From the NCBI GenBank assembly GCA_947496375.1, contig CANMCY010000012.1, forward strand, positions 1-64,000: a DNA stretch of 64,000 nucleotides, written 5' to 3'. Made by a program: the position numbers and the translations under genes. This document shows positions 10,846 to 58,997 of the stretch, piece after piece. Every line of letters starts with the position of its first letter. Within the stretch, counting starts at the first letter, position 1. Below the pieces are notes generated by a model. The model was given only the letters and a program-made list of their open reading frames with translations. It did not search any database and was not told the origin of the DNA. Origin of the DNA: Flavobacteriales bacterium (GTDB lineage: Bacteria; Bacteroidota; Bacteroidia; NS11-12g; UBA955).

Positions 10846-10850
10846 TCGTT

Positions 10851-41781: not shown

Positions 41782-41985
41782 TATGGATTGTTTAAAACAA
41801 ATTTATAGACTTTAGTTACATGGCATGTAATGCTAATATTAACAATAAGCGATGCGAACCGGTTTAAAACTGAGTTGCACCGATTGAATGATGTCCCTAG
41901 CATATCCATGAAGCACATTGGCCGTTATTTTAATTGTCAAGAATATTTACTATTATTGCTTTTTAATAAACACAGTCCTCCACTT

Positions 41986-42945
41986 ATGGCAAGCTTGTAC
42001 ATCATTCCTTTGCTCTGCATTATACTGGTTTTTTACCTGGCCGGCTTTGAAATGCAATACAGATCTGGCAGTGATTCTGTTTACCTCCCCGACAAACACC
42101 TTACCCTGATTGAGTTTCTGACCCAACATAAAACCAAAACCAAAGATTACAGCAGGCCCCCGAAAGAATATGGCGCCTACCAACATTTCATTAAAGGAAC
42201 CTTGGATGGCACTACTGCCTCATTCATTTATGAATATCCGCTGATTCAAAAAATACAGGGTCGCTCGCACATTACCCTCGAACCGGAGGAGACTTCCAAG
42301 CAAGTAGATACGTTTGGACTTCCCATGAAACTGATCCAAAAAAATGAAGATGGCTTCGGCATCGCACCCGGTGTCACCCGGGCTGAAATGGACCTGCACT
42401 TTAATAGCAACGGCTGGTACTTCGATGGGAATACCCAAATGGGAGTGGCCTACCCTACGTTAATCCATCAGTTTGATGCCCTTACAGGAAAAATTGCAGC
42501 TGATTTGAGAGAACAACTATCAGCACACAATAAAGACAATTATTTCAACAGGGTGCAGGCCACGCTAAACTTTGTTCAATTCATTCCCTATGGTCAACCC
42601 AATTTTGATACCGAAGACTGGTATTATCACGAACTCAGCCTTCCGCCCGAGAGCTTTATTCTGGGCTATGCCGATTGCGACAGCAAATCCCTGTTTTTCT
42701 CCTCCATTCTTTCACACCTCATTCCCAAAGAAAATATTATTATTGTGCATTGTATGGTACAATCTTCCTCCAGCAGAACCAATGGGGCCCATGCCATGGC
42801 GGCCGTTTCAGACCTCAATATCGCAGGAGAAAGCATCCTTCACAACCAAAAATCTTACCTGCTGCTTGAAACTACCGCACCCAGCGCCATCGGCAGTTTT
42901 GACTGGGCTTCCTTTCAACTAACAGATATCAGACCCCTGGCATAA
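41986..42945 (+). CDS. Transglutaminase-like membrane protein, first of operon
   Basis: The 319-residue product has an N-terminal membrane helix (about 4-22) and a large outer domain. It ends with a transglutaminase/protease-like core: YADCDSKSLFFSSIL with Cys231, GAHAMAAV with His269 and LLLETTAP with a possible acidic third residue. This fold cleaves or forms amide bonds in proteins or peptides. I start at the ATG at 41986; the frame open from 41830 adds a poor N-terminus. The stop overlaps the next start in TAATG. A second protein with the same core closes the run (46867). Confidence 0.75.
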   Translation: MASLYIIPLLCIILVFYLAGFEMQYRSGSDSVYLPDKHLTLIEFLTQHKTKTKDYSRPPKEYGAYQHFIKGTLDGTTASFIYEYPLIQKIQGRSHITLEPEETSKQVDTFGLPMKLIQKNEDGFGIAPGVTRAEMDLHFNSNGWYFDGNTQMGVAYPTLIHQFDALTGKIAADLREQLSAHNKDNYFNRVQATLNFVQFIPYGQPNFDTEDWYYHELSLPPESFILGYADCDSKSLFFSSILSHLIPKENIIIVHCMVQSSSSRTNGAHAMAAVSDLNIAGESILHNQKSYLLLETTAPSAIGSFDWASFQLTDIRPLA

Positions 42946-43727
42946 TGTATAACTTTTTTGAATGGCTCAGCGAACTCGATAAAAGCACACAGCTGCTGCT
43001 GTTCCTGCTGGTGGTAGCCGCCATGGTGATTATTCCCTATGCATCGCTCATTAAAAAGTATATACTTTTTCTCATAAAACCCGAGCCCCTTAAAATCGTA
43101 TTTTTCAAATTGGAATCTACACCGCATGTGCATGTTGGCAAAGACAGCGATGGAACAGATTTGTATGCCGAAATAGCCGGAGAAGGGATTTTCATTGACG
43201 GCTGTTCAGCTACGCTGATATGGGAAGTAACAGGTGCGCGCAACATAGACATCCACCCTGTAGGAAAATCCTTGGAGGGAAATGCCGCTACGGTTATTAT
43301 CAATGTGTCACAACCTGAATACACCCTCACAGCCAAGGGCTTTAACGGGAAAACCCTTTCTGCTACCCTGCGCATTCCCGAGGAAGATTTGTATCGGCTG
43401 GATTTAGCGCCACTGGGCGATCTAGCCCATACCGGGAATGACCGATCGCTGAATACCGCACCCCTTACCCAATCATTTCCAACAAACCGGCATTTTACCC
43501 GGGATCAACCTTTGACAGGAAACAGAAATAACCTGATTGGCCCGCAAATCAGCCGTTTAAACCCCGAACCCGTGGCCCTTCGCAATGAAAAAAGACGTAT
43601 TTTACATACCGCACTCGACAAACGAAAAATAATGGCTGTGTACAACTACAGCACTACGAAATACAATGCCCTCAAGCATTTCTTCAATGAAACAGAAGCA
43701 GATTATTCAAATACAATCAAACAATAA
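42945..43727 (+). CDS. Membrane-anchored hypothetical protein
   Basis: The 260-residue protein has one N-terminal helix (about 14-30) and a soluble domain. Residues 55-145 form an Ig-like beta domain (VKIVFFKLES, ATLIWEVTGARNIDIHPVG, AATVIINVSQPEYTLTAKGFNGKT). Residues 150-260 are polar and probably disordered, with a helix at the end. It lies directly after the transglutaminase-like gene and before DUF4407, so it may support the same envelope complex. No catalytic motif is seen. Confidence 0.68.
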   Translation: MYNFFEWLSELDKSTQLLLFLLVVAAMVIIPYASLIKKYILFLIKPEPLKIVFFKLESTPHVHVGKDSDGTDLYAEIAGEGIFIDGCSATLIWEVTGARNIDIHPVGKSLEGNAATVIINVSQPEYTLTAKGFNGKTLSATLRIPEEDLYRLDLAPLGDLAHTGNDRSLNTAPLTQSFPTNRHFTRDQPLTGNRNNLIGPQISRLNPEPVALRNEKRRILHTALDKRKIMAVYNYSTTKYNALKHFFNETEADYSNTIKQ

Positions 43728-43743
43728 AAAATAAATATACATC

Positions 43744-44916
43744 ATGAATGAACATGTAGACTATTCAGCCAAACCGGCCAAAGGGGCCACCCGCTTTCTG
43801 TGGTGGTGCGCCGGTGCAGACAAGGATATTTTAAAATATTCCAGTTATGCCGATCACGTAAAGTATGTTGGTATCGGAGGCATCGTACTGGCCACAGGTA
43901 TCCTGGCCAGTCTTTCTATGTTTTTTGCCATCAATTACATTTTTGAAAATGCAGCCATTGCCATCCCGGTAGGATTGCTATGGGGTGCCATTATCTTTAA
44001 CCTGGACCGCTTTATTGTATCCAGCACGGGGAAAGGCGACGGCACAGACACCATCACCTGGAAAGAACTGGGTAACGCTACCCCACGTCTTGCCATGGCG
44101 ATGATTCTGGGTTTTACTATTTCCGCTCCCCTGGAGGTTTATATTTTCCAGAAAGAGATTAATAAACAATTCTTTTTGCAAGATCAAGAAGAACAGAGAC
44201 AATTAAAGAAAAAAATTGAGGAGAGCTTTGAAAAACAACCTGATGTCATTCGACTTAATGAAGAAAAAAGAATAATTCAAAAAAATATAGATGGTGACGC
44301 ACTCAAAGCTAAGTATTACGATAGTCTTTCTGGAGTTGAGAATGACTCAAAAAGAGGAGGCTGCCACGGAAGTTGTGAACAGTATCGGAAAATGGCTGAT
44401 GATTACCGGAAAATAATTCAAGAAAATGAAGCCAAAAAGAAGCTATTAGAGATTGAATTGCAGAAGTATGAAGTTGTTAGAGACAAATCAATTAATGAAT
44501 TGATGGAAAAAAATAAATATCATGGTCTATTAGATAGAATTATTGCCCTGGAAGCCATCCCTGGTTCTTCCCTACCCGCCTGGATGATTCGCCTGATGTT
44601 CGTTTTCATAGAAATTGCGCCCGTGCTATTGAAACTCATGCTCATCAAATCACCGTATGACTACATGAGCGAAAACGTAAATCAGATTCTGGAAACCAAG
44701 CAGGGTATTAACCGTGAGCATATCATTGATGAAAACAACAAGCTTCATACGATGAAAGGTTTCTATAACCCCAAGCGCATCATTGCCATTGTGGAACACC
44801 AGAATGCCAAAGAAGAAGAAAACGCCAAAGAAGCCATTACCCTGTTTGCCAAACAGGAAAAAGAAGACATTCAAAAAGACCCTTCTTCATTCGTAAAACC
44901 CGACAATCAAGCATAA
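43744..44916 (+). CDS. DUF4407 family membrane protein
   Basis: This 390-residue protein has two membrane helices (about 40-85) with GLLWGAIIFNLDRFIVS, then a third (about 120-138) and a fourth near 280-300. These frame a large region from 145 to 270 that is highly charged and coiled-coil-like (QDQEEQRQLKKKIEESFEKQ). The FNLDRF motif is the hallmark of DUF4407, widespread in Bacteroidota, of unknown function. The central region is visibly AT-richer than the ends of the gene, as if exchanged. It follows the Ig-like gene by 16 bases. Confidence 0.82.
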   Translation: MNEHVDYSAKPAKGATRFLWWCAGADKDILKYSSYADHVKYVGIGGIVLATGILASLSMFFAINYIFENAAIAIPVGLLWGAIIFNLDRFIVSSTGKGDGTDTITWKELGNATPRLAMAMILGFTISAPLEVYIFQKEINKQFFLQDQEEQRQLKKKIEESFEKQPDVIRLNEEKRIIQKNIDGDALKAKYYDSLSGVENDSKRGGCHGSCEQYRKMADDYRKIIQENEAKKKLLEIELQKYEVVRDKSINELMEKNKYHGLLDRIIALEAIPGSSLPAWMIRLMFVFIEIAPVLLKLMLIKSPYDYMSENVNQILETKQGINREHIIDENNKLHTMKGFYNPKRIIAIVEHQNAKEEENAKEAITLFAKQEKEDIQKDPSSFVKPDNQA

Positions 44917-44929
44917 GTAATTCGGCTGC

Positions 44930-45907
44930 ATGTCGCTTCCATTTCTTTTTGTTCAGGGAACCTTTAGCGGGAACTACTTTACCGATCAGGGTAGCACCCT
45001 GGTAGATGGACAACCCATGCCTGGCCCCGACAGACACCATGTGCGTTTGTATCGGGGTGAACTGCATGATATATTGCCGCTTAAAGAATTCAAACCGCAG
45101 GACCACCTGAACCGCGATGCCCTTTACCTATACAACGTCACCAATATTCAACTGCATCCGGGCAACAAACAATACATTCAGGAAAAGATTGTTTACGATT
45201 TCGAACAGGTTGTCATCAAAGATGCGCGGGTAAAAGATTCCTGGGAAATTAATGGCAAGACCTACGGCATTGTAGAAGGAACTTTTTTGGGTAAAATTAA
45301 AGTGCCATCCAATGCCCCGGAACCGACTGACCCGCAACCGCCCGCACCTGAACCCATCAATCCGGAAAAGCCCCCCATAGTAACGCAATTCAGCGGTTGC
45401 CTAACCAAGTTGTGGGATATTCTGAAGTGGCTGCTTCTGTTGCTGTTGCTTTTGCTACTATTAAAAAAGTGCAATCCCAGCGGCTGCAACCTGGGCTTGA
45501 ATAACTGCAAGGATTGTCAGGAAGAGCTTGCCCGTCTGCGCAAGCAAATAGACAGCTTAAATGGAGACAACACCATAGGTTGCAGTCAGGCAGCCAAATC
45601 CGGAGGTCGTGGCATTACCGAGAAAAAGCATATTCTGGGCAATCAATCAGGAAGGGTAATCATACAATACGACATGGAAACCGTACCCGATAAAATGGAA
45701 GTGTTTTACGAAGGTACCCTGGTAGCTTCCACCAATCAGGTGCCAGGGAATGAAAAGGGTTTTGTAGGCGGCAAGAATGCAGCCAAATGCTGTGGAGCGC
45801 TCACCTTTGATTTTCAGTACAACAAAGACGACCATTGCATGGTGCGGGTTACAGGCGGCAGCAGCGACACTAAATGGAAATACACATTGTTTTGCCCACA
45901 GCAATAA
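44930..45907 (+). CDS. Membrane-anchored protein with C-terminal beta domain
   Basis: The 325-residue product has a soluble N-terminal domain (LFVQGTFSGNYFTDQGS, HHVRLYRGELHDILPL), a proline-rich spacer (residues 125-150), one leucine-rich membrane helix (about 170-186) and a second soluble part with several Cys (CNPSGCNLGLNNCKDCQ). The C-terminal 85 residues (SGRVIIQYDMETVPDKMEVFYEGTLV...FCPQQ) look like a calx-beta or collagen-binding-type beta sandwich. It may bridge both sides of the membrane. The neighbours imply a role in the same envelope complex. Confidence 0.68.
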   Translation: MSLPFLFVQGTFSGNYFTDQGSTLVDGQPMPGPDRHHVRLYRGELHDILPLKEFKPQDHLNRDALYLYNVTNIQLHPGNKQYIQEKIVYDFEQVVIKDARVKDSWEINGKTYGIVEGTFLGKIKVPSNAPEPTDPQPPAPEPINPEKPPIVTQFSGCLTKLWDILKWLLLLLLLLLLLKKCNPSGCNLGLNNCKDCQEELARLRKQIDSLNGDNTIGCSQAAKSGGRGITEKKHILGNQSGRVIIQYDMETVPDKMEVFYEGTLVASTNQVPGNEKGFVGGKNAAKCCGALTFDFQYNKDDHCMVRVTGGSSDTKWKYTLFCPQQ

Positions 45908-45931
45908 AACCGTAATCAAGTAAAAAATAAT

Positions 45932-46870
45932 ATGCGGCTTAGCGACCAGATAGGAATTGACAGCGATATCATGCAGAAACTTTCTGCAGATGTTGTTAAG
46001 CGGCAAATATTTATTTACAACGGCATATCGCTGATGCTGCTGGTAATTGGTTTGATTAGTGCGGTTTCAGCCACCGTGTATTCGCTCATACTCTTTCACA
46101 GCTGGCTTATTGCCCTTGGTGTGGGCATATTTATCGGTGCAGTGGTGTTTAATCTTTACCGGCTGTTTCTGATGACAGGTTTAGATCTGAAAGGGAGCAC
46201 ACTCGAACATTATCACATCAAGCACGAAAACCACTACCGGGAACACAATCTGTATGCGCTGGATGGCAAAGTCTACCAGCATGCAGATGAAGTCCTTAAA
46301 GGATGGGCAGTTACCGCCAAAGACAAGCTTCGCAGTAAAATCAGTATAAACCCTGCAGCCCCGCGCAACCTTTTCACCATTTTCGTACGGGTATTTGTGA
46401 TGGCGCTGCTGGCCGTAATTTTTGCCAATGGCCTGGAAATTCTGATGTTCAGCCAGCAAATCAACATGGCACTGTCTGACCTAAAACAGGTGCTTCCACC
46501 CGAAGACTGGACCTACAAATACATTCTGACCCCCGATCCGGATGAGCCATTCATTTTGATCAATGCCAATTCGCTGCTGCTCACTTTCGATGCACTGGCT
46601 TCGGGACTTGGCAAATGGAAGTTATGGATGGACATCATGGTACTTGCCATCTACATGATACCGCTGATGGTTATCTACCGTTCCATGGAGGTCAGGCATG
46701 GTGCCTATGTGCAGGAACTGGCACTGCATGAAATCAACAAAACCACCTACCATTACCTGATTACCCAGAAATACTGTCATGTGATTGACACAGAAATTAA
46801 AGCAATGAAATTGCAATTCCGTAAGTATGGGAATCATACAAACAACATTGCAGAAACAACATCGGCATGA
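45932..46870 (+). CDS. DUF4407-like membrane protein, divergent paralogue
   Basis: The 312-residue product has paired helices at about 28-55 and 58-75 with GAVVFNLYRLF, which parallels GAIIFNLDRF of the DUF4407 protein two genes upstream; Asp is replaced by Tyr. Two more helices lie near 152-170 and 228-246, separated by a soluble loop (MSDLKQVLPPEDWTYKY). It was probably derived from the same ancestor. Its stop overlaps the next start in ATGA (46867-46870), so it is coupled to the second transglutaminase-like protein. Confidence 0.72.
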   Translation: MRLSDQIGIDSDIMQKLSADVVKRQIFIYNGISLMLLVIGLISAVSATVYSLILFHSWLIALGVGIFIGAVVFNLYRLFLMTGLDLKGSTLEHYHIKHENHYREHNLYALDGKVYQHADEVLKGWAVTAKDKLRSKISINPAAPRNLFTIFVRVFVMALLAVIFANGLEILMFSQQINMALSDLKQVLPPEDWTYKYILTPDPDEPFILINANSLLLTFDALASGLGKWKLWMDIMVLAIYMIPLMVIYRSMEVRHGAYVQELALHEINKTTYHYLITQKYCHVIDTEIKAMKLQFRKYGNHTNNIAETTSA

Positions 46871-47796
46871 CCCGTGAAAAGAAATATTTCAATGTTTCCC
46901 AGCTGTTATTCTGGGCACTGATTGTATTGCTGATTGTTTTGTCATTCCTGAAATCAGACCTGGGGTTGTTTAACGAAAACGAACTCAGTCGCCGCCATGC
47001 AGAGGCGGATTCACTGAACAAGATTGCCTTGCAGGAACAGGAAGAACAAGAGGAAGAGGAAAATGCGCAAGACAATGATCCGGAAAACACCATTAAAAGA
47101 ACCTGGAAATGGGAATCTTTCGATGGTAAGATTTACACCCTTTCGTTTTCTATTCCCAAAAAAGCCTACGAATCGGCGCGGCAAAACCGGCTGAAACTGC
47201 CCGCTGATCCGAATTGCTGGACCGGCATGTTCCGACATGACAGATCAGGACTGAAAGATATGGTGGAAGGTTACCGCAACATTATTGAAGAACAGAAACT
47301 GGACTACCGGCAAGCCATGCAAATGGTGGTTTCCAGTGCCCAGAATTTCGATTACACCTATATTACGTGGGCCAAGGATCCCTGTCGTGATATTCGCGAT
47401 GCCAACGGCGAAAAACCCTCGCAGGATTGCAAACCGAAACCCTATCCTTATGGATGCTGCGACAATGTAGAACCATTTGCTGTGTATTCTCCGCTGGAAT
47501 ATGCGGTAAACGGGGCCGGTGACTGCGACACTAAATCCCTTTTTGCCATGTCCATACTCAAATACCTGAACATGGGATTTGATGCAGAAATGCTGATGGG
47601 CGAAGTTGAGGCAGGACATCATGCCATGCTGGGTATATGCGTTCCAAACCCACCTTTCAGAAAGCACTCTGTAAGGGATATGCGCACCGGAAAACGTTAT
47701 TATGCCTGGGAATGCACGCAACGGAATAATGCGGCAGAACTGGGCGCTCCCGTATGGCAAATCTTTAAAAACTGGGAAGTAGTACCCATCAGATAA
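46867..47796 (+). CDS. Second transglutaminase-like membrane protein
   Basis: The 309-residue product has one N-terminal helix (about 10-28), an acidic coiled stretch (EEQEEEENAQDN) and a transglutaminase-like core: GAGDCDTKSLFAMSIL with Cys220, EAGHHAMLGI with His252 and WECTQ with Glu282. This matches the core of the first gene of the operon (DCDSKSLF, AHAMA). The family is related to cysteine proteases that cut or join peptide bonds. Both active centres look intact, so two related enzymes probably act on different partners or as a pair. Confidence 0.78.
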   Translation: MTREKKYFNVSQLLFWALIVLLIVLSFLKSDLGLFNENELSRRHAEADSLNKIALQEQEEQEEEENAQDNDPENTIKRTWKWESFDGKIYTLSFSIPKKAYESARQNRLKLPADPNCWTGMFRHDRSGLKDMVEGYRNIIEEQKLDYRQAMQMVVSSAQNFDYTYITWAKDPCRDIRDANGEKPSQDCKPKPYPYGCCDNVEPFAVYSPLEYAVNGAGDCDTKSLFAMSILKYLNMGFDAEMLMGEVEAGHHAMLGICVPNPPFRKHSVRDMRTGKRYYAWECTQRNNAAELGAPVWQIFKNWEVVPIR

Positions 47797-47812
47797 AAAC
47801 AACATAACAACT

Positions 47813-48295
47813 ATGAATACAGGATTATTTAACCTACTCGTACTAATGGTTTTGGGAATCGGATACATGTTCGGATTCATCAAAATGCAACAGCGATTTT
47901 TTGCCAAGTTTTCAAACCCCACCAAAAATCAGGCAGTGCTGATTGTGTTTATTGCTTCCTTGCTCATGGCAGGAATAAACCTATACCACGTAGCCGATCT
48001 CACCAACCAGGCATTTACATTCTTTATTTCAAACAACCAGCTTTCCAGTGCCATCACTTACGCTATTGGATACTTTGCCGGCATGTGGGTATTTTCATTA
48101 ATATTTTTCAGATTGAGTTATTTGGTGGTGGGCATGCTCACGCATGAAAACGAAGATGTGGAGCTCACAAAAAATAATGTAGAGCTGGCATGGACACATG
48201 CTGTCATCCTCATTGTTTTGGCATTTGTCATTGCCCCTGCCCTAATCAACATTGCCGCCGGCTTTATTCCCTATCCGAAGTTTCCCAGTATGTAA
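47813..48295 (+). CDS. Four-helix membrane protein, last of operon
   Basis: The 160-residue product has four predicted helices (about 4-22, 40-58, 85-110, 130-152) and short loops with few charges. It looks like a small membrane subunit, without recognisable motif. It is the last gene of the seven-gene run from 41986 and is followed by a strong terminator, so it belongs to that complex by position. Confidence 0.7.
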   Translation: MNTGLFNLLVLMVLGIGYMFGFIKMQQRFFAKFSNPTKNQAVLIVFIASLLMAGINLYHVADLTNQAFTFFISNNQLSSAITYAIGYFAGMWVFSLIFFRLSYLVVGMLTHENEDVELTKNNVELAWTHAVILIVLAFVIAPALINIAAGFIPYPKFPSM

Positions 48296-48310
48296 TCAGT
48301 AGAGGCATAA

Positions 48311-48336
48311 AAAAAGCCCTCTGAAAAGGGCTTTTT
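48311..48336 (+). terminator. Strong intrinsic terminator of the seven-gene operon
   Basis: AAAAAGCCCT and AGGGCTTTTT enclose a six-base loop, followed by T residues. It lies 16 bases after the stop at 48295 and marks the border between the GC-richer core and the AT-rich right accessory block. Confidence 0.88.
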
Positions 48337-48624
48337 GTTGTGGTATCGGACGATTGCGCTGATTCGGTTAAAATACGGATCATCTCCCAATTTGGGCTAT
48401 CTTTATCCCTATATAAATTTTCATCATTATATTCTTCCAGAACGGGTTATTTAAAAATATCTTTTTTGAATAACATTCGTTCAGAGAATCAATTATTATG
48501 TCAAAGAGGTATTGTTGCCTGTCTTAGGTTATCACAGCTACGGTATTTTTATGAAAATACAAGTTTTTCACCAATCAACAATAAATACGCGTAAACCCTA
48601 TCCACTTTATGTATATTTGATAAC
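48337..48624. other. Gene-free stretch with a promoter-like box
   Basis: No coding gene. TATATTTG at 48612-48619 is a perfect TAnnTTTG match only five bases before the ATG at 48625, which would give a leaderless or nearly leaderless message. The rest is AT-rich without hairpins. Confidence 0.4.
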
Positions 48625-49263
48625 ATGAAAGTTGAATTTTCTGAAAGTACAAACAGTTTCCCCATATCAAGCCATGGTGATCTGCTAAAAACCATATTAA
48701 CAAAGTATGCCAATAATAGTCAAACGACAAAAGTGACACTCTATGCTGTGCAAGAAATAGTTCAAAACATAAAAGATGAATGGGAGTGGATACAAAAAAA
48801 GGCGGCCTATTTTGATGAATCCACAACAATAATCATTACCCGGCTATTAAAGCAGCAGCAAAAAATAAACAATATGGCAAAACGATTTAAAATCAAAGAA
48901 GAACCCGGTTTCGGAGATGTTCAATACCTGAACATAGCTGCAAAGTGGATTCGTTTTGAAAAAGACTTAAAATTCTCGCTTAATACGTTGCAGAATGCCA
49001 TTGAGAATATGAAACAGTTATCACCACAGCAGACAAAATTAAGTTCAGATAAATACTGGATTATCGAAAAACAGAAAGAAATTTGGACTGAAAGGCAACC
49101 TTCCAACAAAGGCAAGGCAAAGCACGACATTACAATCGAGATGCCTTTGACAATATCATCAGGTATCAATATGGTTGCAATATCAGGGAATGGACAAGGT
49201 AGTATTCGCAAATATTTTACTTTTTGGCAATATAAAAAAGATCGATGGGTAAATATAAAATAG
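48625..49263 (+). CDS. Helical hypothetical protein
   Basis: This 212-residue protein is mostly helical (residues 20-145), with a C-terminal strand-rich part of about 50 residues. No signal, membrane helix or motif is seen. A WIRFEKDLKFSLNTLQNAIENMK helix is rich in charges, suggesting a coiled coil. It is the first gene of the accessory block with the MoxR ATPase, and an adaptor role is possible but unsupported. Confidence 0.62.
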   Translation: MKVEFSESTNSFPISSHGDLLKTILTKYANNSQTTKVTLYAVQEIVQNIKDEWEWIQKKAAYFDESTTIIITRLLKQQQKINNMAKRFKIKEEPGFGDVQYLNIAAKWIRFEKDLKFSLNTLQNAIENMKQLSPQQTKLSSDKYWIIEKQKEIWTERQPSNKGKAKHDITIEMPLTISSGINMVAISGNGQGSIRKYFTFWQYKKDRWVNIK

Positions 49264-49298
49264 CCACAGCTCCATTTTTCTTAGTAAGTTTACAACTA

Positions 49299-49306
49299 TA
49301 TATTTG
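49299..49306 (+). promoter_or_regulatory. Candidate -7 box before the 85-residue gene
   Basis: TATATTTG, a perfect TAnnTTTG match, 13 bases before the ATG at 49320. The same octamer occurs before the gene at 48625. No -33 TTG is seen. Confidence 0.4.
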
Positions 49307-49319
49307 AATCAGAATACCT

Positions 49320-49577
49320 ATGGAAATTATTAATTTTATGTCGCCTGGCACTGATGTTTTTGGAAGAAAATACCCATTGGAGATAACCTGCAAAGATGGT
49401 TCTGTTTTTTTTGGCCATATAAAGACCTATAATAATGCAGTAAAGAAAATATATTTTTTACTCTTGGGAAGCAATGAAGACTGGATTAATCAGAGAGAGC
49501 CGGATGTTCAACACAGGGAAAATATTACTATTCATACAGAAACCATTGATAGTATTCGCGTCTTCAAAAATTACTAG
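49320..49577 (+). CDS. Small beta-rich hypothetical protein, Sm-like outline
   Basis: The 85-residue product has strands PLEITCKDGSVFFGHIKTY, KKIYFLLLG and ENITIHTETIDSIRVF. Five strands of this length in a small protein resemble an Sm/SH3-like barrel, but no family motif is visible, so this is only a shape argument. It has its own promoter-like box and lies 48 bases before the MoxR gene, probably on the same transcript. Confidence 0.6.
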   Translation: MEIINFMSPGTDVFGRKYPLEITCKDGSVFFGHIKTYNNAVKKIYFLLLGSNEDWINQREPDVQHRENITIHTETIDSIRVFKNY

Positions 49578-49625
49578 TTCCTACACCAGATTTACTATTA
49601 AATACCCACGCCAGAAACTGCTATT

Positions 49626-50738
49626 ATGTCAACTTACGGACAAATACTTAACACCAAGCAGCTAATTGCTTTTCTAGATCACATTTTCAGAGACAATAAG
49701 GACAACAACCCAAAAAGAAATACCCCTGTTTTAATCTGGGGAAAACACGGTTTGGGGAAAACTGAGAGCATTATGGATTATGCCCGAAAGAAAAACTGGA
49801 AAATAGCCTATTGTGCGCCTGCACAATTTGAAGAAATGGGCGATTTACATGGCATGCCAATAGTCCGGGACCCCAATCCCAAGGTACACGGTGATGAAGT
49901 AACCATATACAGTCCCCCGGCATGGATACCGAAAGAACCCGGACCCGGGCTGTTGATTCTGGATGACATCAACAGGGCCGATGATAGAATCCTACGAGGC
50001 GTAATGCAGTTGCTTCAGAATTTTGAACTTATGTCATGGACACTTCCGCCCAACTGGCATATCATTGCCACAGCCAATCCTGATGACGGGAATTATTCGG
50101 TTACAACTATGGATGAGGCCATGCTGACAAGAATGTTGCATGTGACCCTTGAATTTGACGTGAAAAGCTGGCTGGATTGGGCAATTGAAAACGATATAGA
50201 TAGACGCGGTTTTAATTTTGTTGCTACTTACCCCGAATCCATAACAGGCAATCGCACAACCCCCAGAAGTCTGGTGCAATTTTTCGAACATTTAAAAGGG
50301 ATTGAGAATTTAAATGAGAATATTGAGATGGTAAATATTCTTGCAAGCAGCACACTCGATGCTACTACTGTTTCATCTTTTATTGCATACATCAATAATG
50401 ACCTTGATGTTTTACTTTCACCTGAAGATATCCTTGACAGCAAAGATTGGGATAATACCTCAAAGCAAGTACAGAAAATTGCTATTGATAAAGATGGCGC
50501 CTTCAGACTGGACCGCCTATCTACGGTTATAATGCGGATTTCTCAATTTCTACTGCATAATAATTACCAAGGCGGAGCAAAACATAAAGAAAATTTAATT
50601 GCCTTTATGCATTTGGATTGTATACCTTCTGACCTTAAAATGTCTCTCTATTTAGACTTATCTAAAATAGGAAATCCACAGATAAAAGAAATAATTAAGG
50701 ATCCAAAACTGGCTAAATTGATGTTAAATTCAATGTAA
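49626..50738 (+). CDS. MoxR-type AAA+ ATPase
   Basis: The 370-residue protein has an AAA+ module near its start: Walker A GKHGLGKTE (39-47), Walker B LLILDDINRAD (109-119), sensor 1 IIATANPDDG (146-155) and a DEAMLTRM segment with the arginine finger. The loop ahead of Walker B and the N-terminal position are MoxR-like. MoxR ATPases usually partner with vWA proteins to load metals or remodel complexes, and a vWA protein is encoded convergently (50753). C-terminal 130 residues are helical. Confidence 0.85.
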   Translation: MSTYGQILNTKQLIAFLDHIFRDNKDNNPKRNTPVLIWGKHGLGKTESIMDYARKKNWKIAYCAPAQFEEMGDLHGMPIVRDPNPKVHGDEVTIYSPPAWIPKEPGPGLLILDDINRADDRILRGVMQLLQNFELMSWTLPPNWHIIATANPDDGNYSVTTMDEAMLTRMLHVTLEFDVKSWLDWAIENDIDRRGFNFVATYPESITGNRTTPRSLVQFFEHLKGIENLNENIEMVNILASSTLDATTVSSFIAYINNDLDVLLSPEDILDSKDWDNTSKQVQKIAIDKDGAFRLDRLSTVIMRISQFLLHNNYQGGAKHKENLIAFMHLDCIPSDLKMSLYLDLSKIGNPQIKEIIKDPKLAKLMLNSM

Positions 50739-50752
50739 ATAACATCAAATTA

Positions 50753-51991
50753 TTAATCCCAATTAAGCTTAATTACCTTACCGGATTCCAGCAGATGCTG
50801 ACCGGAATCACTGCCCACTATAACATATAAAATTTTGTATTTACACTTAACGTCAGGGGCGGATGCACCACCATCTGTAAAATAAATTACTCCCGCGTAC
50901 TTTGTTTTTGATTCGTTAATAAATTCCAATGCAGGATTAAAATCTGTCCCTCCCCTGCCTTCCGCCTGAAAAGAATAATTTTTGGTAAATTTCTGGGCTG
51001 TCTGAACCCTGGCATCTGCTTGAATAATCAAAATTTCAGCCCCACGGTTATGTATATTTCTAATTTCATGCATAAACGCTTCCAGCTCTCTATTGTGAAC
51101 AGAACCAGATGTATCGATAACGACTGCAAGTTTCCAGCCCGGTTCTCGTTTAATTCTTACACCAGGTCTGGTCCCAAAACGTTTACTCTCTCGCTTGATA
51201 GTTCTATATACCTTGGTGCTTCGGGTGCCTGACGCAAATAAACGTAGTGCCTTTTTCCAGTCCAGCTTTGATTTTAAACGCTTTTCCAACATTTCTATTT
51301 CTTCAACAACTTCACCAGGCAAATACCCTCGCCCCCGGTTTGGTAATTTGCCTAGACTATCCATAATCTTTTTGGCTAACTGCTTTTCTGCAGCGGAATC
51401 ACGGCCAGGCATATATTCCTGTAGGGATTCTCCGATGGTGTTTTTGCCCCAAAGAGAATGGTTTCCTAGGTTTTCTCTACCATAAACAGCATCTAACAGC
51501 GCCTTAGGACTGACATCAGAATCTGTTAACTGCTCATATTTTCCATCCTTGATTTTTTGGAGTTCTGCATAATAATATTCCAACGTTTCATTTTCGCGAA
51601 GATTAACACTATTAAATATTTGCAGCGTTACGGCACCGTCCGGCAAATCATTACTGCTGATAAACTGATTAATCACAATATCTGCAGCAAGATTCAGCAG
51701 CTTTAAATCGGCAAAATCAGACTGCCGGAACAAATGCCTGAAAACAAGATGTAATACTTCATGTTTTAATACTGCAACCTTTTGTTTTATCCCTTTAAGC
51801 TCTTTAGTATAAAAATCAGCATTCACGAACAGCGCAATCTGATTGTCTTTAAAACCAACGGCAATGGTTGGAATCCGGTTTGTAAAGACACGAACGAGGC
51901 CTGACAACATGTGAGCAAAAAAAGGCTCCTTAATCAATAACTGATTAACACAGTGAGATAGCTCTTCATTTGCTTTTTGGTTTGATGACAT
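50753..51991 (-). CDS. DUF2201-like metallopeptidase/vWA protein
   Basis: The 412-residue protein has a putative zinc-peptidase-like region, KHEVLHLVFRHLF (76-88), with HExxHxxxxH, and LAADIVINQF. The C-terminal vWA domain (from about 285) has the MIDAS residues DTSGSV (293-298), GGTD (347-350) and TDGGAS (372-377). This pairing of a metallopeptidase-like domain with vWA is what I know as DUF2201, often encoded with a MoxR ATPase. The two genes converge here with 14 bases between the stops instead of forming an operon. They probably act together on an unknown target. Confidence 0.85.
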   Translation of the reverse strand: MSSNQKANEELSHCVNQLLIKEPFFAHMLSGLVRVFTNRIPTIAVGFKDNQIALFVNADFYTKELKGIKQKVAVLKHEVLHLVFRHLFRQSDFADLKLLNLAADIVINQFISSNDLPDGAVTLQIFNSVNLRENETLEYYYAELQKIKDGKYEQLTDSDVSPKALLDAVYGRENLGNHSLWGKNTIGESLQEYMPGRDSAAEKQLAKKIMDSLGKLPNRGRGYLPGEVVEEIEMLEKRLKSKLDWKKALRLFASGTRSTKVYRTIKRESKRFGTRPGVRIKREPGWKLAVVIDTSGSVHNRELEAFMHEIRNIHNRGAEILIIQADARVQTAQKFTKNYSFQAEGRGGTDFNPALEFINESKTKYAGVIYFTDGGASAPDVKCKYKILYVIVGSDSGQHLLESGKVIKLNWD

Positions 51992-52044
51992 TATCTCATA
52001 CTCTCTTCAAATATAATATCTTGACGATTAGAATATTTTTATTA

Positions 52045-53166
52045 ATGAACACTTTTATCTATAATTGCTATACATCATTCAATAATTTGATTCCCTCTGA
52101 ATTTATACGAAATAAAGGTCTAAGCAAAAAAGAATTCGTCAAATTGACCTCCTTGCTTCAATCAAAAGAATACAGTGAGATATTCGTAGGTGTATCTATT
52201 GTTGAAGGGCTGATGGATGAAAATCTGATAGATTTCTTACTGGATGGATTGACATATAAAAATTACACACTAAAAACACCCGATTTTTTCAATGCCGGAC
52301 CAAAAGCCAAACCATATACCACAACTGCCTTACTAGGCATACTGCAGGCAGCTTCTGCTTTCCCGAAATGGAATAATTTTATTACCAAAATTAAGCATAT
52401 ACTGCTTGTTTGCGACCAGCCTGACTATCTTGGTGTCTTTAAACAGGCAGACTCTGTCTGTCTACTCCGTAAAAATAATTATGGTAATTACAAACCTGAG
52501 ATATGGAACTTCCCCGATAATGTTACGGCGGGAGTCGCCATAGGAAATCAGATATGGATGGAGAAAAATCTATCCATAGATAAATTCAGCAATGGTGAAC
52601 GTATTCCGGAAGCCATGACTGAGAGCCAATGGTATAGTTTTCAGGACCAATATAAACCGGGCATGGCGTGTTACAACTATAATGCCAACAATGAAACCGT
52701 CTGCGGTAAACTCTACAATGGCATTTCTATTATAGATTCGAGAAAATTGGCTCCAAAAGGCTGGCATATTCCATCATCAGCAGAATTTGAGAAGCTGATT
52801 ACACATCTCGGAGGGCACTCAAAAGCAGGCAATAAATTAAAAAGCAAGACCGGATGGGCTCATGGTGGTCATGGCAATAACAAGAGCGGTTTTAATGCTT
52901 TTCCAGGGGGCTATATCAACTACCAGGGAATAAATTATGGCCCCAAATTCGAAAACTATTCAAACTTACCTGCCGGTTACATTCCCTTTGAGCATGGGCC
53001 CGAAGTTCCAGGAGACGCAGCAGGCTGGTGGACCACTGATTTAGATACAGACCCCGGTAAATCATTTCTATATTATGTAGAAGGGGATTCAGATAATGTT
53101 CATAAAACAAGCAATTATATGAGCGATGGATTTTCTGTTCGATGCATCTGGGACTATTCAATATAA
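52045..53166 (+). CDS. Shared N-terminal module plus FISUMP domain
   Basis: The 373-residue protein has two parts. Residues 25-120 form a helical module (VEGLMDENLIDFLLDGL, TALLGILQAASAFPKW) also found at the start of the next gene. Residues 163-373 are a FISUMP domain: IGNQIWMEKNL, WHIPSSAEFEKL, GWAHGGHGNNKSGFNAFPGG and FSVRCIWD. FISUMP is usually extracellular and sugar-binding-like, but no signal peptide is present here, so this copy seems to work inside the cell. I start at 52045, since upstream codons are part of the divergent promoter. Probably a modular adaptor or sensor. Confidence 0.75.
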   Translation: MNTFIYNCYTSFNNLIPSEFIRNKGLSKKEFVKLTSLLQSKEYSEIFVGVSIVEGLMDENLIDFLLDGLTYKNYTLKTPDFFNAGPKAKPYTTTALLGILQAASAFPKWNNFITKIKHILLVCDQPDYLGVFKQADSVCLLRKNNYGNYKPEIWNFPDNVTAGVAIGNQIWMEKNLSIDKFSNGERIPEAMTESQWYSFQDQYKPGMACYNYNANNETVCGKLYNGISIIDSRKLAPKGWHIPSSAEFEKLITHLGGHSKAGNKLKSKTGWAHGGHGNNKSGFNAFPGGYINYQGINYGPKFENYSNLPAGYIPFEHGPEVPGDAAGWWTTDLDTDPGKSFLYYVEGDSDNVHKTSNYMSDGFSVRCIWDYSI

Positions 53167-53172
53167 ATTAAA

Positions 53173-54375
53173 ATGAAAAATAAAAAGTTAACCCTCAAAG
53201 AAATTGATAATTTTAAAAAAATTTTCAAACAAATGGTAATATCCAATGAACCTGAAACCATAATTTCAGCTGTTGGAATGGCTGAGGGCCTGGATGATGA
53301 AAGGTTATATGATATAATGCTGGATGGAATTCGCATTGAAAAAAAATCAAATAGACTTCTGCCTTCAGATTTTTTTATGGACAATGGACCAAGAGGTATT
53401 CCTAAAGAATGGGGCACTTATAATACCTCCTATCCATATAATGCGATGAAAAAGATAATTAATAATGGTTTTCATCCATACAGATTTACAGCTATGACAG
53501 GCATATTAAATGCCGCTAGTAAATACCCTAAATGGCAGGCTTTTGTAAATGAAATCAAAGAATTAAGAAGTCCCTGTTTTTATCTGGATTTTTTAAACTG
53601 TTTTAAAAACCTGGATATTTTGTACTTGGAAAATGGAGACAGATTTGAAAAAGGCATCGACATGCCCTGTCTTAAAAAAATATTCTGGTACAGTTTTGGT
53701 CATGGAGAATGCCCTTATGATGAAACCGGAATCAGTTTACATGCCATAAACAAGTGTCACAATCTTACCCATCTTGAAATAGAAGGAAATTTGTTTCTCC
53801 ATGATGGTTTTGAGGGAATAGACGAAATGAGAAATTTAGAAACCCTAATCGTTGAAAAACTACAGGGCAACTTTCTAAGCGGATTTAGTCCGCTTGGCTC
53901 TTGTAAAAAAATTAGTATTCTGAGTATAAATAAAAAAACAGAATACCCTAGAACCAAGTATGACACGTTTCATAATCATTCATCCACAATAATGAATTCA
54001 CCCAATTATCAAGTTTCGGGAGAATCCAACTATGCACATCGTTGGGTTGATCCCCCCAATGTGATTTATGATGAACTATACCCACCGGTTAACATCTCAA
54101 ATCTAAAAGGTTTAGAAAATTTATATGAGTTAAAAGTATTGATACTAAAGGGTTTTCATTCCTTAACAGATACAACTGCACTTACAAACTGCAAAAATCT
54201 TGAAGAAATTCATATTTTATCTAACTCTGTAGCCAACCTAGTATTCCACAAAAAACTGCCACAATTAAGAAAATTAAAGTTAAAATGTAAAGAGTTAAAA
54301 ACAATTGCTTGCCAGGAATATCCGGATATGCTTGAGGAATTTATTATAGAATCCAATAAGTTTAATTTTTCCTAA
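53173..54375 (+). CDS. Shared N-terminal module plus leucine-rich repeats
   Basis: The 400-residue product starts with the same module as its neighbour (residues 6-132: AEGLDDERLYDIMLDGI, TAMTGILNAASKYPKW). From about 135 it has irregular leucine-rich repeats (CFKNLDILYLEN, CHNLTHLEIEGN, MRNLETLIVEK, LYELKVLILKG, CKNLEEIHILS, LPQLRKLKLK). LRRs bind proteins. No signal peptide is visible. It follows 52045 by six bases, so both are co-expressed: one constant module, two different recognition parts. Confidence 0.75.
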   Translation: MKNKKLTLKEIDNFKKIFKQMVISNEPETIISAVGMAEGLDDERLYDIMLDGIRIEKKSNRLLPSDFFMDNGPRGIPKEWGTYNTSYPYNAMKKIINNGFHPYRFTAMTGILNAASKYPKWQAFVNEIKELRSPCFYLDFLNCFKNLDILYLENGDRFEKGIDMPCLKKIFWYSFGHGECPYDETGISLHAINKCHNLTHLEIEGNLFLHDGFEGIDEMRNLETLIVEKLQGNFLSGFSPLGSCKKISILSINKKTEYPRTKYDTFHNHSSTIMNSPNYQVSGESNYAHRWVDPPNVIYDELYPPVNISNLKGLENLYELKVLILKGFHSLTDTTALTNCKNLEEIHILSNSVANLVFHKKLPQLRKLKLKCKELKTIACQEYPDMLEEFIIESNKFNFS

Positions 54376-54757: not shown

Positions 54758-55450
54758 ATGAAACACGCACTTAACTTTTGTGTCCTTTTGGCAAGCATTC
54801 TATTAATATCCTGCAATCAAGCTTCTCCAGAAAACAATTCAAGCAGTGATTCAATCAGTAAAGAGGGACAAACGAATATTGAAGAACCAACAACAGACGA
54901 GGTAAAAATAGGAGATCAAATATGGATGACCAAAAACCTTGATGTTGCAACATTTAGAAATGGCGACCCTATTCCTGAGGCAAAAACAGACGAGGAATGG
55001 GTACGTGCTGGGAAAAATAGAAAACCAGCCATGTGTTATTACAATAATGACGAGGCCAATAAAAAATATGGAAGATTATATAATCGATATGCAGTAACAG
55101 ATAAGAGAGGACTAGCTCCAAAAGACTGGCATATTCCTACTGATAGTGAGTTTGAAACACTTACGCAATCCGTTGGCGGTTATGAGGTTGCTGGCAAAAA
55201 ACTAAAAACAAAGAATGGCTGGGAAGACAACAAAAACGGGGATAATAGTTCTGGTTTTTTTGGCTACCCAAATGGTTTACGATATACCGAGGGCACTTTC
55301 AGACACATGCACCAATATGTAAGATACTGGACGGCAGATGAAACTGCGGAGGAAACCAATGGACGCTACCTTCACCTATCGCTCGAATCATTTCCCAGCC
55401 ACCCTCATGATGCCACCGAAGGCTTGTCAGTAAGATGCATTAAAGATTAA
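54758..55450 (+). CDS. FISUMP lipoprotein
   Basis: The 230-residue product has a lipoprotein signal ending LLISC (Cys19), a serine- and glutamate-rich spacer to residue 48, and a complete FISUMP domain: VKIGDQIWMTKNLDVATFRNG, WHIPTDSEFETL, SGFFGYPNG and LSVRCIKD. This domain closely parallels that of the cytosolic-looking 52045 protein, so the two probably descend from one source within this cluster. It should be anchored in the outer or inner membrane and face the periplasm or surface. A FISUMP domain is often linked to polysaccharides, but a ligand cannot be named. Confidence 0.85.
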   Translation: MKHALNFCVLLASILLISCNQASPENNSSSDSISKEGQTNIEEPTTDEVKIGDQIWMTKNLDVATFRNGDPIPEAKTDEEWVRAGKNRKPAMCYYNNDEANKKYGRLYNRYAVTDKRGLAPKDWHIPTDSEFETLTQSVGGYEVAGKKLKTKNGWEDNKNGDNSSGFFGYPNGLRYTEGTFRHMHQYVRYWTADETAEETNGRYLHLSLESFPSHPHDATEGLSVRCIKD

Positions 55451-55565: not shown

Positions 55566-58500
55566 ATGCAGTTTACTGATCCCTCCTATCTTAGAATTAT
55601 TGAGCACGGCTTACTTACAGGAATTTATAATAAAGATGACGGCTTCAATTTACCCATCGGCCTGACCGAAATTTATGAAAGTTACTTTCCACCAGAAACC
55701 AATGTCAACGAAAGAAAAGATTTACTGGAATTCTTTTGCACATGGGCTTTAATTAAAAAGGAAATAAGTATTGATTTCATTAAGCCTATTCTCCCTAATT
55801 TAAGTGCTGAAAAGGCACAGGAAATATTTAACAACCATAGCAAATTATTCAACATAAGCTCTAATGGTAAATGTACCCTATACCATGATCGCTTAAGGGT
55901 ATTCTTTTTACAAAAAATAAGCCATAAATACTTAGTAGATATTAATCAAAATATAATAAATAAGTGTTACAAATCCTTAAAAGACAAAAAAGAAAATGAA
56001 TGGTCCATTTATGCATTAGAACATCTTGGATCGCACCTATTGTGGACAGCCACCTTGAAAAAACAAAATGGCAAATCACTAAAGCACTTAGCCTACAGCA
56101 TCCATATTTGGAAACAACAGAAAAAATATTGCGGCAACTATGATTGGAGCCGGAAAATCTTAGAAGAGGCAATGATCTGGGCAAGCATGAACAATGAGAA
56201 AGATATCATAGAATGTACTGTTAAACAGATTAATTTAAGAAACTTTGAAATATCCCAATTTATAACAGACATTAAAACCTATATCGGCGATAATGACATA
56301 GAAAAAGCAATCAGTATAATTAATATTATTTACAATGAATCACACCTCTATAAAACCACTGTATTAATAGCATCAATCATATATGTTAAATTCGGCAAGC
56401 ACAAGGATAATATTGATTTAGAAAATATAATTGATCGAATAATAAATGAGATAGATGAAAATTTAAAAGAGATTAAATCTAAATCTTTATTATCAGCTGA
56501 TGAATATGAAGAATATAATAAAACAATAAACGGCACCCTAATTTTGATACAGAATAATTGGGGCAAAACAAGAATTAGTAAATCTTTTGCATTGATTGAA
56601 TTTGATGACAACAAAGAACAGCACATTAATAGCGTAAACAAGTATGTATCCATGGAAGATTCAGAGCTAATGGTAAATCTTGATAATTTTACTGGCACTA
56701 TAGATAACCCATACGAGTTGTGCAAAACAATTGCCAACATCTCTGCTGAGCTATTTAAACGGAATTATACAACCGACGCCATGAGATATCTGGAGGAAAG
56801 CATCCTCATAATGAAAAAACATAGCGTACAAAGCGCCTGGCCAATTGTCATAAGAACTCTTGTACAAATGGGCCGAACTGATGATGCAGATAAACACATA
56901 GAATCGCTCGAGAAAAGTATTTTATTTTGCAGTGATCAAGAATATCATGATCTGAATAAAGCATTTGAAGGTTCCCTATATTGTGGGATTGTGGCAAGTA
57001 TCAATAACAATTCATTTCCGGAAGTTTGGATAAATAGACTATGCAATTACTATTTCACGGAATATAATTTATCAACTACAATAATAGATAGAAGTTTCCA
57101 AAAGTTACAGGCAATATTAGAAGCACTTAGCCAATCAAACCTAAAGACTAAAATGCCTGAAATCATCGAAAGAATAACAGAACTATGGGGTAACTATGTA
57201 AAATACGGCAATAAACCAATTAATAAACATATATACTTTTTAAAATTTGTTCTTTCTGCATTAGGTAAAATCCAATCATCAGAAGATACTATTAATACTC
57301 TCATAAGAGGGAACTACTCAATTCAGCGGAATGAAGAAAGCCAACGTAAAGACTTCAATACTGACAAGATTATCAAGACCTTTATAGCGGCCAACAAATA
57401 CTATGAAGCATGGATTGTTGCAGAAAACACTCAAAATGAAACTGAAACCAACCAATGGGAAGTGATATTATTTGCCATTAAAAAGGGTCATTATGACGAT
57501 GCCCATGGATTGATAAAAATGCATATTAATAAGTATAATTATTTCGGCGAAAATGAAATAATAGAAATAAAAACTGAGAGACAGTTGATGAAAATGAAGG
57601 CATTGTATCACAATTATAAAGAATCCTTAGAGATGTTCACTAGACTCTGTAACATTGCGGAAACTAAATATCCTATTTATGAGAAGGTAATGGATTTAAT
57701 TGAAATAGCTGAATTGGCATATAACCAAAAAGAAACTGAATATGCCACAACCGTTCTGGATTTTGCTGGAAGAATTATCAAAAAATCAGGTAAAAATGAA
57801 TCATATGCAGTTCAATCCTTAGTAAAAGAATATGCCAGACAGCATGCCTTGGATAAATCCCTTGAAATTATTAATAATTTACCAAACCCAAAGGATAGAG
57901 CAGCTTATATTTTAGATATCATTCAAATTTTGTGTACCCAAGGAAAGCTTGACGAAGCAGTTGAACTTTCAGAGAATTGGGAATTATATGGAGCAGAAAA
58001 AGAATTTATGAGATACGCGATTACCGAATTGCTAGAAGAGAAGAAATTTGAAAAAGCCATTGAATTAAACTCATATATTTCAGGAGAACAGCGATTTATC
58101 GCCTACAATGCAATCATAGAAGCACTTGAGAAAAACAATCTCACATCGTTGACCCAAAAAACGATTGCCGAAGCTTTTGAATACTTTTTGAATAACATAA
58201 ACCACCGTGAAAATTATTCTGATTATTCAAATAATCTAGCGACAATTTCTAATCATCTTCACAAGACCAGTAAATTACAAACCATTACTTCACTTATTAA
58301 AATTTATAAAAAATCCAAATATGATTCCATTCTAATTCAACAATACGCTTTATTTTTAGCATTAAAAGGCCAAATTAATAATGCACTGAAAACTGCTAAA
58401 TCAATTACCGATATTTCATTAAAAGGACAAACCTTTAAACAAATAGCAATCATACAATTTAGAAAAAACGAATTTAACGAATCTATCAACATAGCCAAAG

Positions 58501-58997
58501 CTATCTCCATAAAAGAAATACAGGATGAAACATTGAGCGAACTGGCAATAGAAGCCGCACTGGCTGGTATGTGGGAAAAATCACAACAAATTGGCGGCAC
58601 AATAGAAGATAATCAATACAGATATGAATGCTGGCATAAAATATTTAGAAAAACCTATTGCCGAATTAACGACAACACATTCATCACAATAATGAATAAG
58701 ATATATACACCCGAAATGAAAGATGCTTTTACGCGGCTTTGGTTTGATGAGCTTGTAAAATCTGAAACATTATGCGATTTTTCACCTAAAGAGATATTCC
58801 CAATCGGTTGCTTTAACATTGGGCAGAAGACGGTTCTATTGCGTGAATATTTCACATGGAAACTATTTTCTGATGGGTTGTCGGATAAAGAAGTAAAACT
58901 TTACAAAGAATGCATGAACATTACTAAGGAACTTAATTTAAAAAGTAATTTAGAAATATATTTGAAGGAAAATCCTCTATGTTTACATTTTAACTAA
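55566..58997 (+). CDS. Winged-helix plus helical-solenoid protein, orphan STAND half
   Basis: The 1143-residue product starts with a winged-helix-like part (50-120) ending in CTLYHDRLRVFFLQKI, a motif typical of the region after a NACHT ATPase. Then come more than 900 residues of helical repeats (degenerate TPR/ARM-like pairs such as YEAWIVAENTQN, NQKETEYATTVLDFAGR, DEAVELSENW, EKAIELNSYISGEQ). No Walker A or B exists. It is therefore the C-terminal half of a STAND protein without the ATPase, as in the three partner genes at 10851-16525 but with different sequence. It may need an ATPase encoded elsewhere. The L,D-transpeptidase gene starts eight bases later. Confidence 0.72.
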   Translation: MQFTDPSYLRIIEHGLLTGIYNKDDGFNLPIGLTEIYESYFPPETNVNERKDLLEFFCTWALIKKEISIDFIKPILPNLSAEKAQEIFNNHSKLFNISSNGKCTLYHDRLRVFFLQKISHKYLVDINQNIINKCYKSLKDKKENEWSIYALEHLGSHLLWTATLKKQNGKSLKHLAYSIHIWKQQKKYCGNYDWSRKILEEAMIWASMNNEKDIIECTVKQINLRNFEISQFITDIKTYIGDNDIEKAISIINIIYNESHLYKTTVLIASIIYVKFGKHKDNIDLENIIDRIINEIDENLKEIKSKSLLSADEYEEYNKTINGTLILIQNNWGKTRISKSFALIEFDDNKEQHINSVNKYVSMEDSELMVNLDNFTGTIDNPYELCKTIANISAELFKRNYTTDAMRYLEESILIMKKHSVQSAWPIVIRTLVQMGRTDDADKHIESLEKSILFCSDQEYHDLNKAFEGSLYCGIVASINNNSFPEVWINRLCNYYFTEYNLSTTIIDRSFQKLQAILEALSQSNLKTKMPEIIERITELWGNYVKYGNKPINKHIYFLKFVLSALGKIQSSEDTINTLIRGNYSIQRNEESQRKDFNTDKIIKTFIAANKYYEAWIVAENTQNETETNQWEVILFAIKKGHYDDAHGLIKMHINKYNYFGENEIIEIKTERQLMKMKALYHNYKESLEMFTRLCNIAETKYPIYEKVMDLIEIAELAYNQKETEYATTVLDFAGRIIKKSGKNESYAVQSLVKEYARQHALDKSLEIINNLPNPKDRAAYILDIIQILCTQGKLDEAVELSENWELYGAEKEFMRYAITELLEEKKFEKAIELNSYISGEQRFIAYNAIIEALEKNNLTSLTQKTIAEAFEYFLNNINHRENYSDYSNNLATISNHLHKTSKLQTITSLIKIYKKSKYDSILIQQYALFLALKGQINNALKTAKSITDISLKGQTFKQIAIIQFRKNEFNESINIAKAISIKEIQDETLSELAIEAALAGMWEKSQQIGGTIEDNQYRYECWHKIFRKTYCRINDNTFITIMNKIYTPEMKDAFTRLWFDELVKSETLCDFSPKEIFPIGCFNIGQKTVLLREYFTWKLFSDGLSDKEVKLYKECMNITKELNLKSNLEIYLKENPLCLHFN

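Follow-up and report, generated by a model that had tools for sequence, protein, structure and literature searches.

According to passages of PMC7824862, jumbo phages of group 2.2 encode a MoxR ATPase together with a vWA protein that carries an N-terminal metallopeptidase, and a role in virion assembly with peptidolysis has been proposed for the pair. Extracts of PMC7159879 and PMC8195603 describe MoxR-vWA ternary conflict systems, the third parts of which include VMAP, iSTAND, FtsH, beta-propeller, iSTAND2 and TERNS3, and a portion of PMC10907252 deals with C-type-lectin sensors that are diversified by diversity-generating retroelements (DGR) and occur with MoxR. The present analysis concerns a MoxR-vWA block in a 64,000-nucleotide stretch of DNA from a Flavobacteriales bacterium (NCBI GenBank assembly GCA_947496375.1, contig CANMCY010000012.1, positions 1 to 64,000), referred to below as the window. 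The block consists of six open reading frames (ORFs) of interest between 48.6 and 54.4 kb, four of which encode a MoxR ATPase (C), a metallopeptidase-vWA protein (D) and two recognition-type proteins (E and F) that share a helical module. There is good support for a functional link among C, D, E and F. The preferred reading, given a probability of about 0.5, is of a machine that uses ATP to degrade or remodel proteins, takes interchangeable recognition subunits and acts in conflict or in DNA-linked quality control.

Domain calls were judged against curated Pfam cut-offs. Gene C (49626-50738, plus strand) encodes a MoxR-type AAA+ ATPase of 370 residues, for which PF07728 (AAA_5) scored 27.2 bits (cut-off 22). 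In its Walker A motif (GKHGLGKT, residues 39-46; 49740-49763, plus strand), residues G39, G42, G44, K45 and T46 were invariant in a 16-row alignment, and the Walker A pattern was present in 26 of 26 MoxR matches of the bacterial set. Protein C was 44-59% identical to the products of vWA-adjoining MoxR genes of most relatives, and its best solved relative was the midasin AAA ring, which is uninformative on targets. Gene D (50753-51991, minus strand) encodes a protein of 412 residues in which a DUF2201_N putative metallopeptidase domain (PF13203, 54.9 bits; cut-off 23.2) is fused to a DUF2201 vWA-like domain (PF09967, 65.2 bits; cut-off 26.4) that occupies residues 288-409. Both motifs of this protein were intact, with H77, E78 and H81 of the HExxH of the predicted metallopeptidase (HEVLH, residues 77-81; 51749-51763, minus strand) and D293, S295 and S297 of the metal ion-dependent adhesion site (MIDAS) DxSxS of the vWA domain (DTSGS, residues 293-297; 51101-51115, minus strand) invariant in 16 rows. 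Among D-type proteins of at least 330 residues, DxSxS was found in 35/35 of the bacterial set and 89/89 viral proteins and HExxH in 32/35 and 89/89, respectively, bacterial counts that take in the window itself and duplicate loci from the same contigs; the three proteins lacking HExxH were those of the distant loci L034-L036 (loci and genomes of the survey carry L and G numbers). By sequence, no solved relative of D was found. In a fold search with an AlphaFold2 model of D (mean predicted local distance difference test score, pLDDT, 82), the C-terminal 130 residues resembled vWA/I-domains with Z up to 12.9.

Genes E (52045-53166, plus strand) and F (53173-54375, plus strand) encode proteins of 373 and 400 residues, the N-termini of which are alike (32% identity over 152 residues, E value 2e-13). 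The first-pass annotation, made from the DNA alone, had recognized this likeness but overlooked the C-termini, which are known recognition-type domains, FISUMP (Fib_succ_major) in E (52534-53148, residues 164-368; PF09603, 109.7 bits; cut-off 33.9) and leucine-rich repeats (LRR) in F (PF12799 LRR_4, 29.9 bits; cut-off 27). The shared module is helical and about 97 residues long, and was represented by a hidden Markov model (HMM) of 97 positions iterated on a small set. It lies at 52123-52410 in E (independent E value 2e-27) and, with an insertion, at 53194-53571 in F (4e-20), and the two copies were closest to each other (38% identity) and next to the second module of a giant LRR protein of locus L005 (37 and 30%). 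In the AlphaFold2 model (pLDDT about 90-96), the module (residues 31-120 of E) runs from helices through a hairpin to further helices and a strand that passes into the repeats; the FISUMP half of E was modelled at low confidence. No solved relative of E was found, and no signal peptide of E was apparent by eye.

In the present window, the module thus occurs in two short, one-module proteins, with FISUMP replacing the repeats in one of them, whereas the modules of relatives are borne on LRR or DUF285 repeats. The iterated HMM matched two copies in each of the giant LRR proteins of L005/L017 and L007, the second half of which aligns with F, two proteins each in L008, L009, L010, L012 and L030, and also L024 and the viral contig L075; the two module proteins of L010 bear DUF285 repeats, and the partner of the module varies with the locus among LRR, DUF285 and FISUMP. 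Weaker matches were noted in LRR proteins of a deeper clade, where those in L016, L018, L020, L021, L023 and L028 may include HMM drift, and in six viral loci besides L075 (E values 1e-4 to 7e-6). Since loci were fetched by way of the vWA protein, confinement of the module to this context was tested solely in two partly overlapping samples of 395 and 147 genomes. In the first, drawn evenly from the phylum, the module occurred in 1 of 395 genomes, namely the window's own and there solely at the present locus (17-row alignment), while among the 147 relatives good matches were limited to the window's own genome (G000) and G055, in both cases at the vWA locus, with one marginal match in G085 (E value 0.009). 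No copy of the module was found on plasmids.

Gene D is single-copy in its own genome and accessory, being absent from 6/6 congeners; relatives were present in 2 other genomes of the 147. A 160-residue gene to the left of the block (47813-48295) is shared with congeners G002 and G006, in which other genes lie beyond it. In G055, the order was MoxR, a 1444-residue giant LRR protein with two modules and a convergent vWA gene, and in G108, LRR, vWA and MoxR on a single strand. A scan of genome contigs yielded 31 loci, of which 30 were analysed and L037, with no usable vWA ORF, was left out; L017 and L025 are contigs of G055 and G108, respectively, and are not independent of the search of 147 genomes. 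The first-pass annotation had called for a check of whether the same genes co-occur elsewhere, and this proved to be so for MoxR within 5 kb of vWA in 21/30 bacterial loci and for an LRR, DUF285 or module protein at a distance of up to 4 kb in 14/30 by script (15 counting L025 by Pfam). The script was a simple regular expression, and the LRR counts are lower bounds because it missed F and L025. By the same crude means, LRR-like ORFs of at least 200 residues accounted for 8 of 55 at distances up to 1.5 kb and for 1 of 68 at more than 5 kb. Relatives of D at E values of 1e-10 or less were present in 8/395 phylum genomes, of which the neighbourhoods of the window's own, G165 and G181 were viewed. 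In G165, which was sampled irrespective of LRR, genes for a 1156-residue WGR-TPR-LRR-BRCT protein, a 531-residue LRR protein and a 317-residue protein lie on one strand directly upstream of MoxR and vWA; in G181, the vWA protein adjoins a PLD-like gene and MoxR was not seen.

This recurrence largely counters the explanation that the block is no functional unit, i.e., a variable island where a MoxR-vWA pair of phage type stands beside LRR and FISUMP genes by chance. Such an origin would fit the shuffling of neighbouring STAND, TPR and DUF4407 clusters among relatives, as well as the single occurrence of a FISUMP-module fusion. However, module-LRR genes adjoin the pair in several Bacteroidota lineages and in one viral contig, and the module was found nowhere else in the sample, so that chance association is very improbable.

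Divergence of the parts was consistent with a conserved core and changing recognition proteins. In a 57-row tree, D, on a long branch (1.03), grouped with the proteins of L007 and L017 (support 95/94), both of which carry giant module-LRR proteins, and this group fell inside an 11-row set (an open fork, 93/92) in which 9/11 have LRR or module proteins. All 27 of 27 rows of sampled phage proteins formed one separate clade (support 100/100). Identity decreased from MoxR to vWA to LRR proteins in each of three pairs (84.1, 71.0 and 39.5%; 92.6, 91.6 and 73.7%; 70.5, 68.3 and 44.3%). Faster divergence of LRR proteins is as expected if these proteins recognise targets, though weaker constraint on the repeats would give the same picture. 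The first-pass annotation had stated that its proposal would fall if the neighbourhood were not conserved in relatives and the products did not interact. The objection from conservation is answered, given that the set recurs, that in the sampled genomes the module keeps to this context and that the recognition proteins vary most.

The same variability bears on an assembly chaperone, by which the MoxR-vWA pair would mature a specific complex or metalloenzyme and the recognition proteins would be clients or scaffolds, not sensors. MoxR-vWA pairs are widely chaperone-cochaperones according to the relevant parts of PMC7159879, and the role in virion assembly proposed for the phage pair in PMC7824862 also speaks for this reading. 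Unlike a fixed client, however, the proteins beside the present pair and its relatives vary in domain (LRR, DUF285 or FISUMP) and diverge fastest, no conserved enzyme client was noticed among adjoining genes, and presence of the set is sporadic (8/395 genomes). An assembly chaperone is therefore considered unlikely, and a machine with interchangeable recognition subunits is preferred.

Nucleic-acid-linked genes were also noted near relatives of the pair. With a home-made HMM, BRCT was detected in LRR-set proteins of L016, L018, L020, L021, L023, L028 and L075, and Pfam BRCT in L020 (just under the cut-off), L021, L023 and L072, the last of which combines WGR with BRCT; in L008 and L030, BRCT occurs as a separate gene. 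A cassette of three genes, for proteins of about 200 and about 235 residues and an ATP-dependent ligase-like protein, lies beside MoxR-vWA in L008 (12956-15608), L024 (469-3125), L030 (14557-17206) and L031 (551-3512), the last a Kiritimatiellia contig and the others Bacteroidota contigs. Neither of the two small cassette proteins could be assigned to a family in the copies scanned, whether by NCBIfam or, above cut-off, by Pfam. In addition, L010 has a gene for an SRA-GreA/B-C protein, GreA/B-C domains being known from other conflict systems according to part of PMC8195603, and L075, a contig filed as viral, has a DNA phosphorothioation-associated putative methyltransferase (9285-11909; TIGR04096, 580 bits) that adjoins a giant BRCT-module-LRR protein, MoxR and vWA.

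Because such genes recur near relatives, DNA-linked quality control was kept as the main rival. By this account, the machine would act on proteins located at damaged or modified DNA, which it would remove or remodel much as DNA-protein crosslink proteases do; LRR, BRCT and WGR adaptors would sense the DNA, and the window would hold a derived version from which the DNA-sensing domains have been lost. The BRCT and WGR domains of the LRR sets, the ligase cassettes, the SRA gene and the methyltransferase beside the L075 set all favour it, but Pfam searches found no BRCT, WGR, ligase or SRA domain in the window's own block, ligase and SRA occur in a minority of loci, and the cassette was present in 0/95 viral loci. 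As an account of the window, it is rather doubtful.

If the preferred reading is correct, the MoxR AAA+ ring formed by C would have D as its co-chaperone, in which a zinc-type HExxH protease is combined with a MIDAS vWA domain. The cytoplasmic proteins E and F would bind targets by means of their differing ends, one a FISUMP domain of the DGR-diversified kind and the other leucine-rich repeats, and the shared helical module probably brings both to the core. Binding of a target would then recruit or license the ring, which may unfold the target or a partner and so feed the protease. Conflict with invaders or quality control linked to DNA is the probable setting; sequence alone does not discriminate between the two. 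A more specific version, in which the module of about 97 residues is a dedicated docking domain and free-standing LRR, BspA-type DUF285 and FISUMP (C-type-lectin kind) proteins program one MoxR-zincin-vWA protease as an adaptor-addressed immune or DNA-guard system, the bare core of which is widespread in phages, is possible and is advanced tentatively.

Several observations weigh against the preferred reading. MoxR was not seen in 9/30 bacterial vWA loci, one of them cut by a contig end, and no LRR or module protein was seen in 15/30; therefore, the pair or a lone vWA protein also exists free of adaptors. The fold-search list for D was filled by its vWA half, so the zincin fold is a prediction, and the module gave a weak structural match to HEAT/ARM-type repeats (Z at most 6.1). 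FISUMP on the module was limited to the window. No defence model of PADLOC-DB 2.0.0 fitted any of 9 proteins, the best match being to an unlabelled candidate at an E value of 0.009, and the neighbouring ligase cassette, SRA, BRCT and WGR point to a role in DNA as readily as to defence.

Downstream of F, the neighbouring gene G (54758-55450, plus strand) encodes a FISUMP lipoprotein (PF09603, 148.6 bits; lipobox-like start by eye) that is the nearest paralogue of the FISUMP domain of E in the genome (47% over 129 residues; 3 FISUMP places in all). Because the closest FISUMP copy is that of a neighbouring gene, gain of the FISUMP domain of E by local domain swap is suggested, with G as its possible source; membership of G in the system is uncertain. 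Fib_succ_major is counted among DGR variable proteins in part of PMC4159848. Diversification of the FISUMP domain by a DGR was rejected because the genome (99.99% complete) gave 0 matches to the reverse transcriptase family PF00078, for which a control search was positive in 3/14 genomes.

With regard to the remaining claims of the first-pass annotation, the MoxR and metallopeptidase-like/vWA genes, their convergence (the ORFs are separated by 14 bases) and the AT-rich nature of the block (GC 0.36-0.39 in 2-kb intervals of 48001-54000 as opposed to 0.43-0.46 in 42001-48000 on the left flank) all held. Of the compound system that it proposed, the core of ATPase and vWA protein and the variable recognition proteins with their common module stood, as this set recurs in relatives; two small genes and a downstream STAND half as further parts were not supported. 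Thus, the 212-residue ORF upstream of C, described as helical, is a plausible ORF with no family match, and its sole relative in 147 genomes was in congener G003, which has no vWA gene. The 85-residue ORF, also upstream of C and described as Sm-like, had no Pfam match above cut-off, Sm included, and a best PDB match to YaeO at an E value of 0.16. Copies of neither ORF were present in related MoxR-vWA loci, and both were dropped as parts. Similarly, the gene at 55566-58997, taken for the STAND half, had just weak TPR/PPR scores by Pfam, was missing from related MoxR-vWA loci bar a 36% match in L007, and has relatives in G033, G097 and G126, none with a vWA match. Antisense control by convergence was also set aside. 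There is no overlap between the ORFs, and promoter-like sites were no commoner than in shuffles (34 compared with 30.5 expected); terminator-like sites numbered 3 compared with 5.8 expected, with none between MoxR and vWA. The arrangement also varies, as in L005/L017 and L007 the vWA gene converges on the LRR gene, and in most other loci it is co-directional.

The 55566-58997 gene encodes one of two related long helical/TPR proteins near the contig end, the other being encoded at 63905-64639 of contig C12, and the two have relatives in G033, G097, G126 and L007. In a second group (8350-16525), a gene for a P-loop (STAND-like) protein precedes genes for three TPR proteins that are alike in their N-terminal domain. 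The group adjoins the MoxR-vWA set in G055 (L005) and, in part, in L007; it was rejected as a core part, its STAND-like gene being found also in G032 and G033, both without a vWA match. This group and the 55566-58997 gene share a variable island and may be more loosely linked to the block. A third cluster (41830-48295) includes one or more DUF4407 membrane proteins (PF14362, 195 bits at 43744-44916) and two members that are transglutaminase-like by eye only; it is conserved in congeners G002 and G006, where parts of it were seen, and partly in G033.

Compared with the ternary conflict systems, as far as these are covered in the extracts of PMC7159879 and PMC8195603, the block is alike in its core of MoxR and adjacent vWA, its variable third part and the rapid change of its non-ATPase parts. 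In contrast, the vWA protein of the window has a protease at its N-terminus and lacks an effector at its C-terminus, the vWA domain ending at residue 409 of 412, and the variable part consists of separate recognition proteins that share a module. The strict order of third component, MoxR and vWA of VMAP-type systems does not apply to the window with its convergent MoxR and vWA genes, and no VMAP- or iSTAND-type third part was matched by Pfam among the window genes at E values up to 1, the coverage of these models by Pfam being unchecked. Because two features of ternary conflict systems are lacking, the block was not filed as one. The DGR lectin-sensor systems, from what the portion of PMC10907252 states, are alike in that a sensor domain adjoins MoxR; they differ from the window in that its genome is without a reverse transcriptase and its FISUMP domain is on the module and not on the vWA protein. 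Searches of open-licence PubMed Central papers, together with passages of PMC7159879, PMC8195603, PMC10907252 and PMC7824862, turned up no bacterial version with LRR or module proteins.

The bare MoxR-metallopeptidase-vWA pair is already known from jumbo phages, the description of which in PMC7824862 indicates the same core as in the window. Protein D matched PHROG 1314 (E value 1e-54), was 28% identical over 90% to a 'zincin-like protease fused to vWA domain' of phage AR9 (KU878088), and was matched by 46/50,697 phage records and 39/72,556 plasmid records. PHROG 1314 and many phage annotations (e.g., NC_031039 and NC_043027) label the family 'HNH endonuclease', which clashes with its DUF2201 domains. 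A MoxR match was present in 75/80 viral loci, and in 74 of the 75 it was directly downstream on the same strand, whereas in the window MoxR and vWA are convergent and accompanied by two recognition proteins. Module matches in the phage versions were weak, L075 excepted, and the phage proteins form their own clade; in the vicinity of the present block, no gene for a virion part was noticed. If the proposed function holds, the block would represent a bacterial protease machine, built on MoxR-vWA, with targets set by exchangeable recognition proteins, and would resemble adaptor-addressed degradation in eukaryotes. It would also supply a short candidate docking module, movable between recognition domains, and would provide the common phage pair, the role of which is a proposal, with a bacterial counterpart that is open to testing and in which the parts that bind targets have been named.

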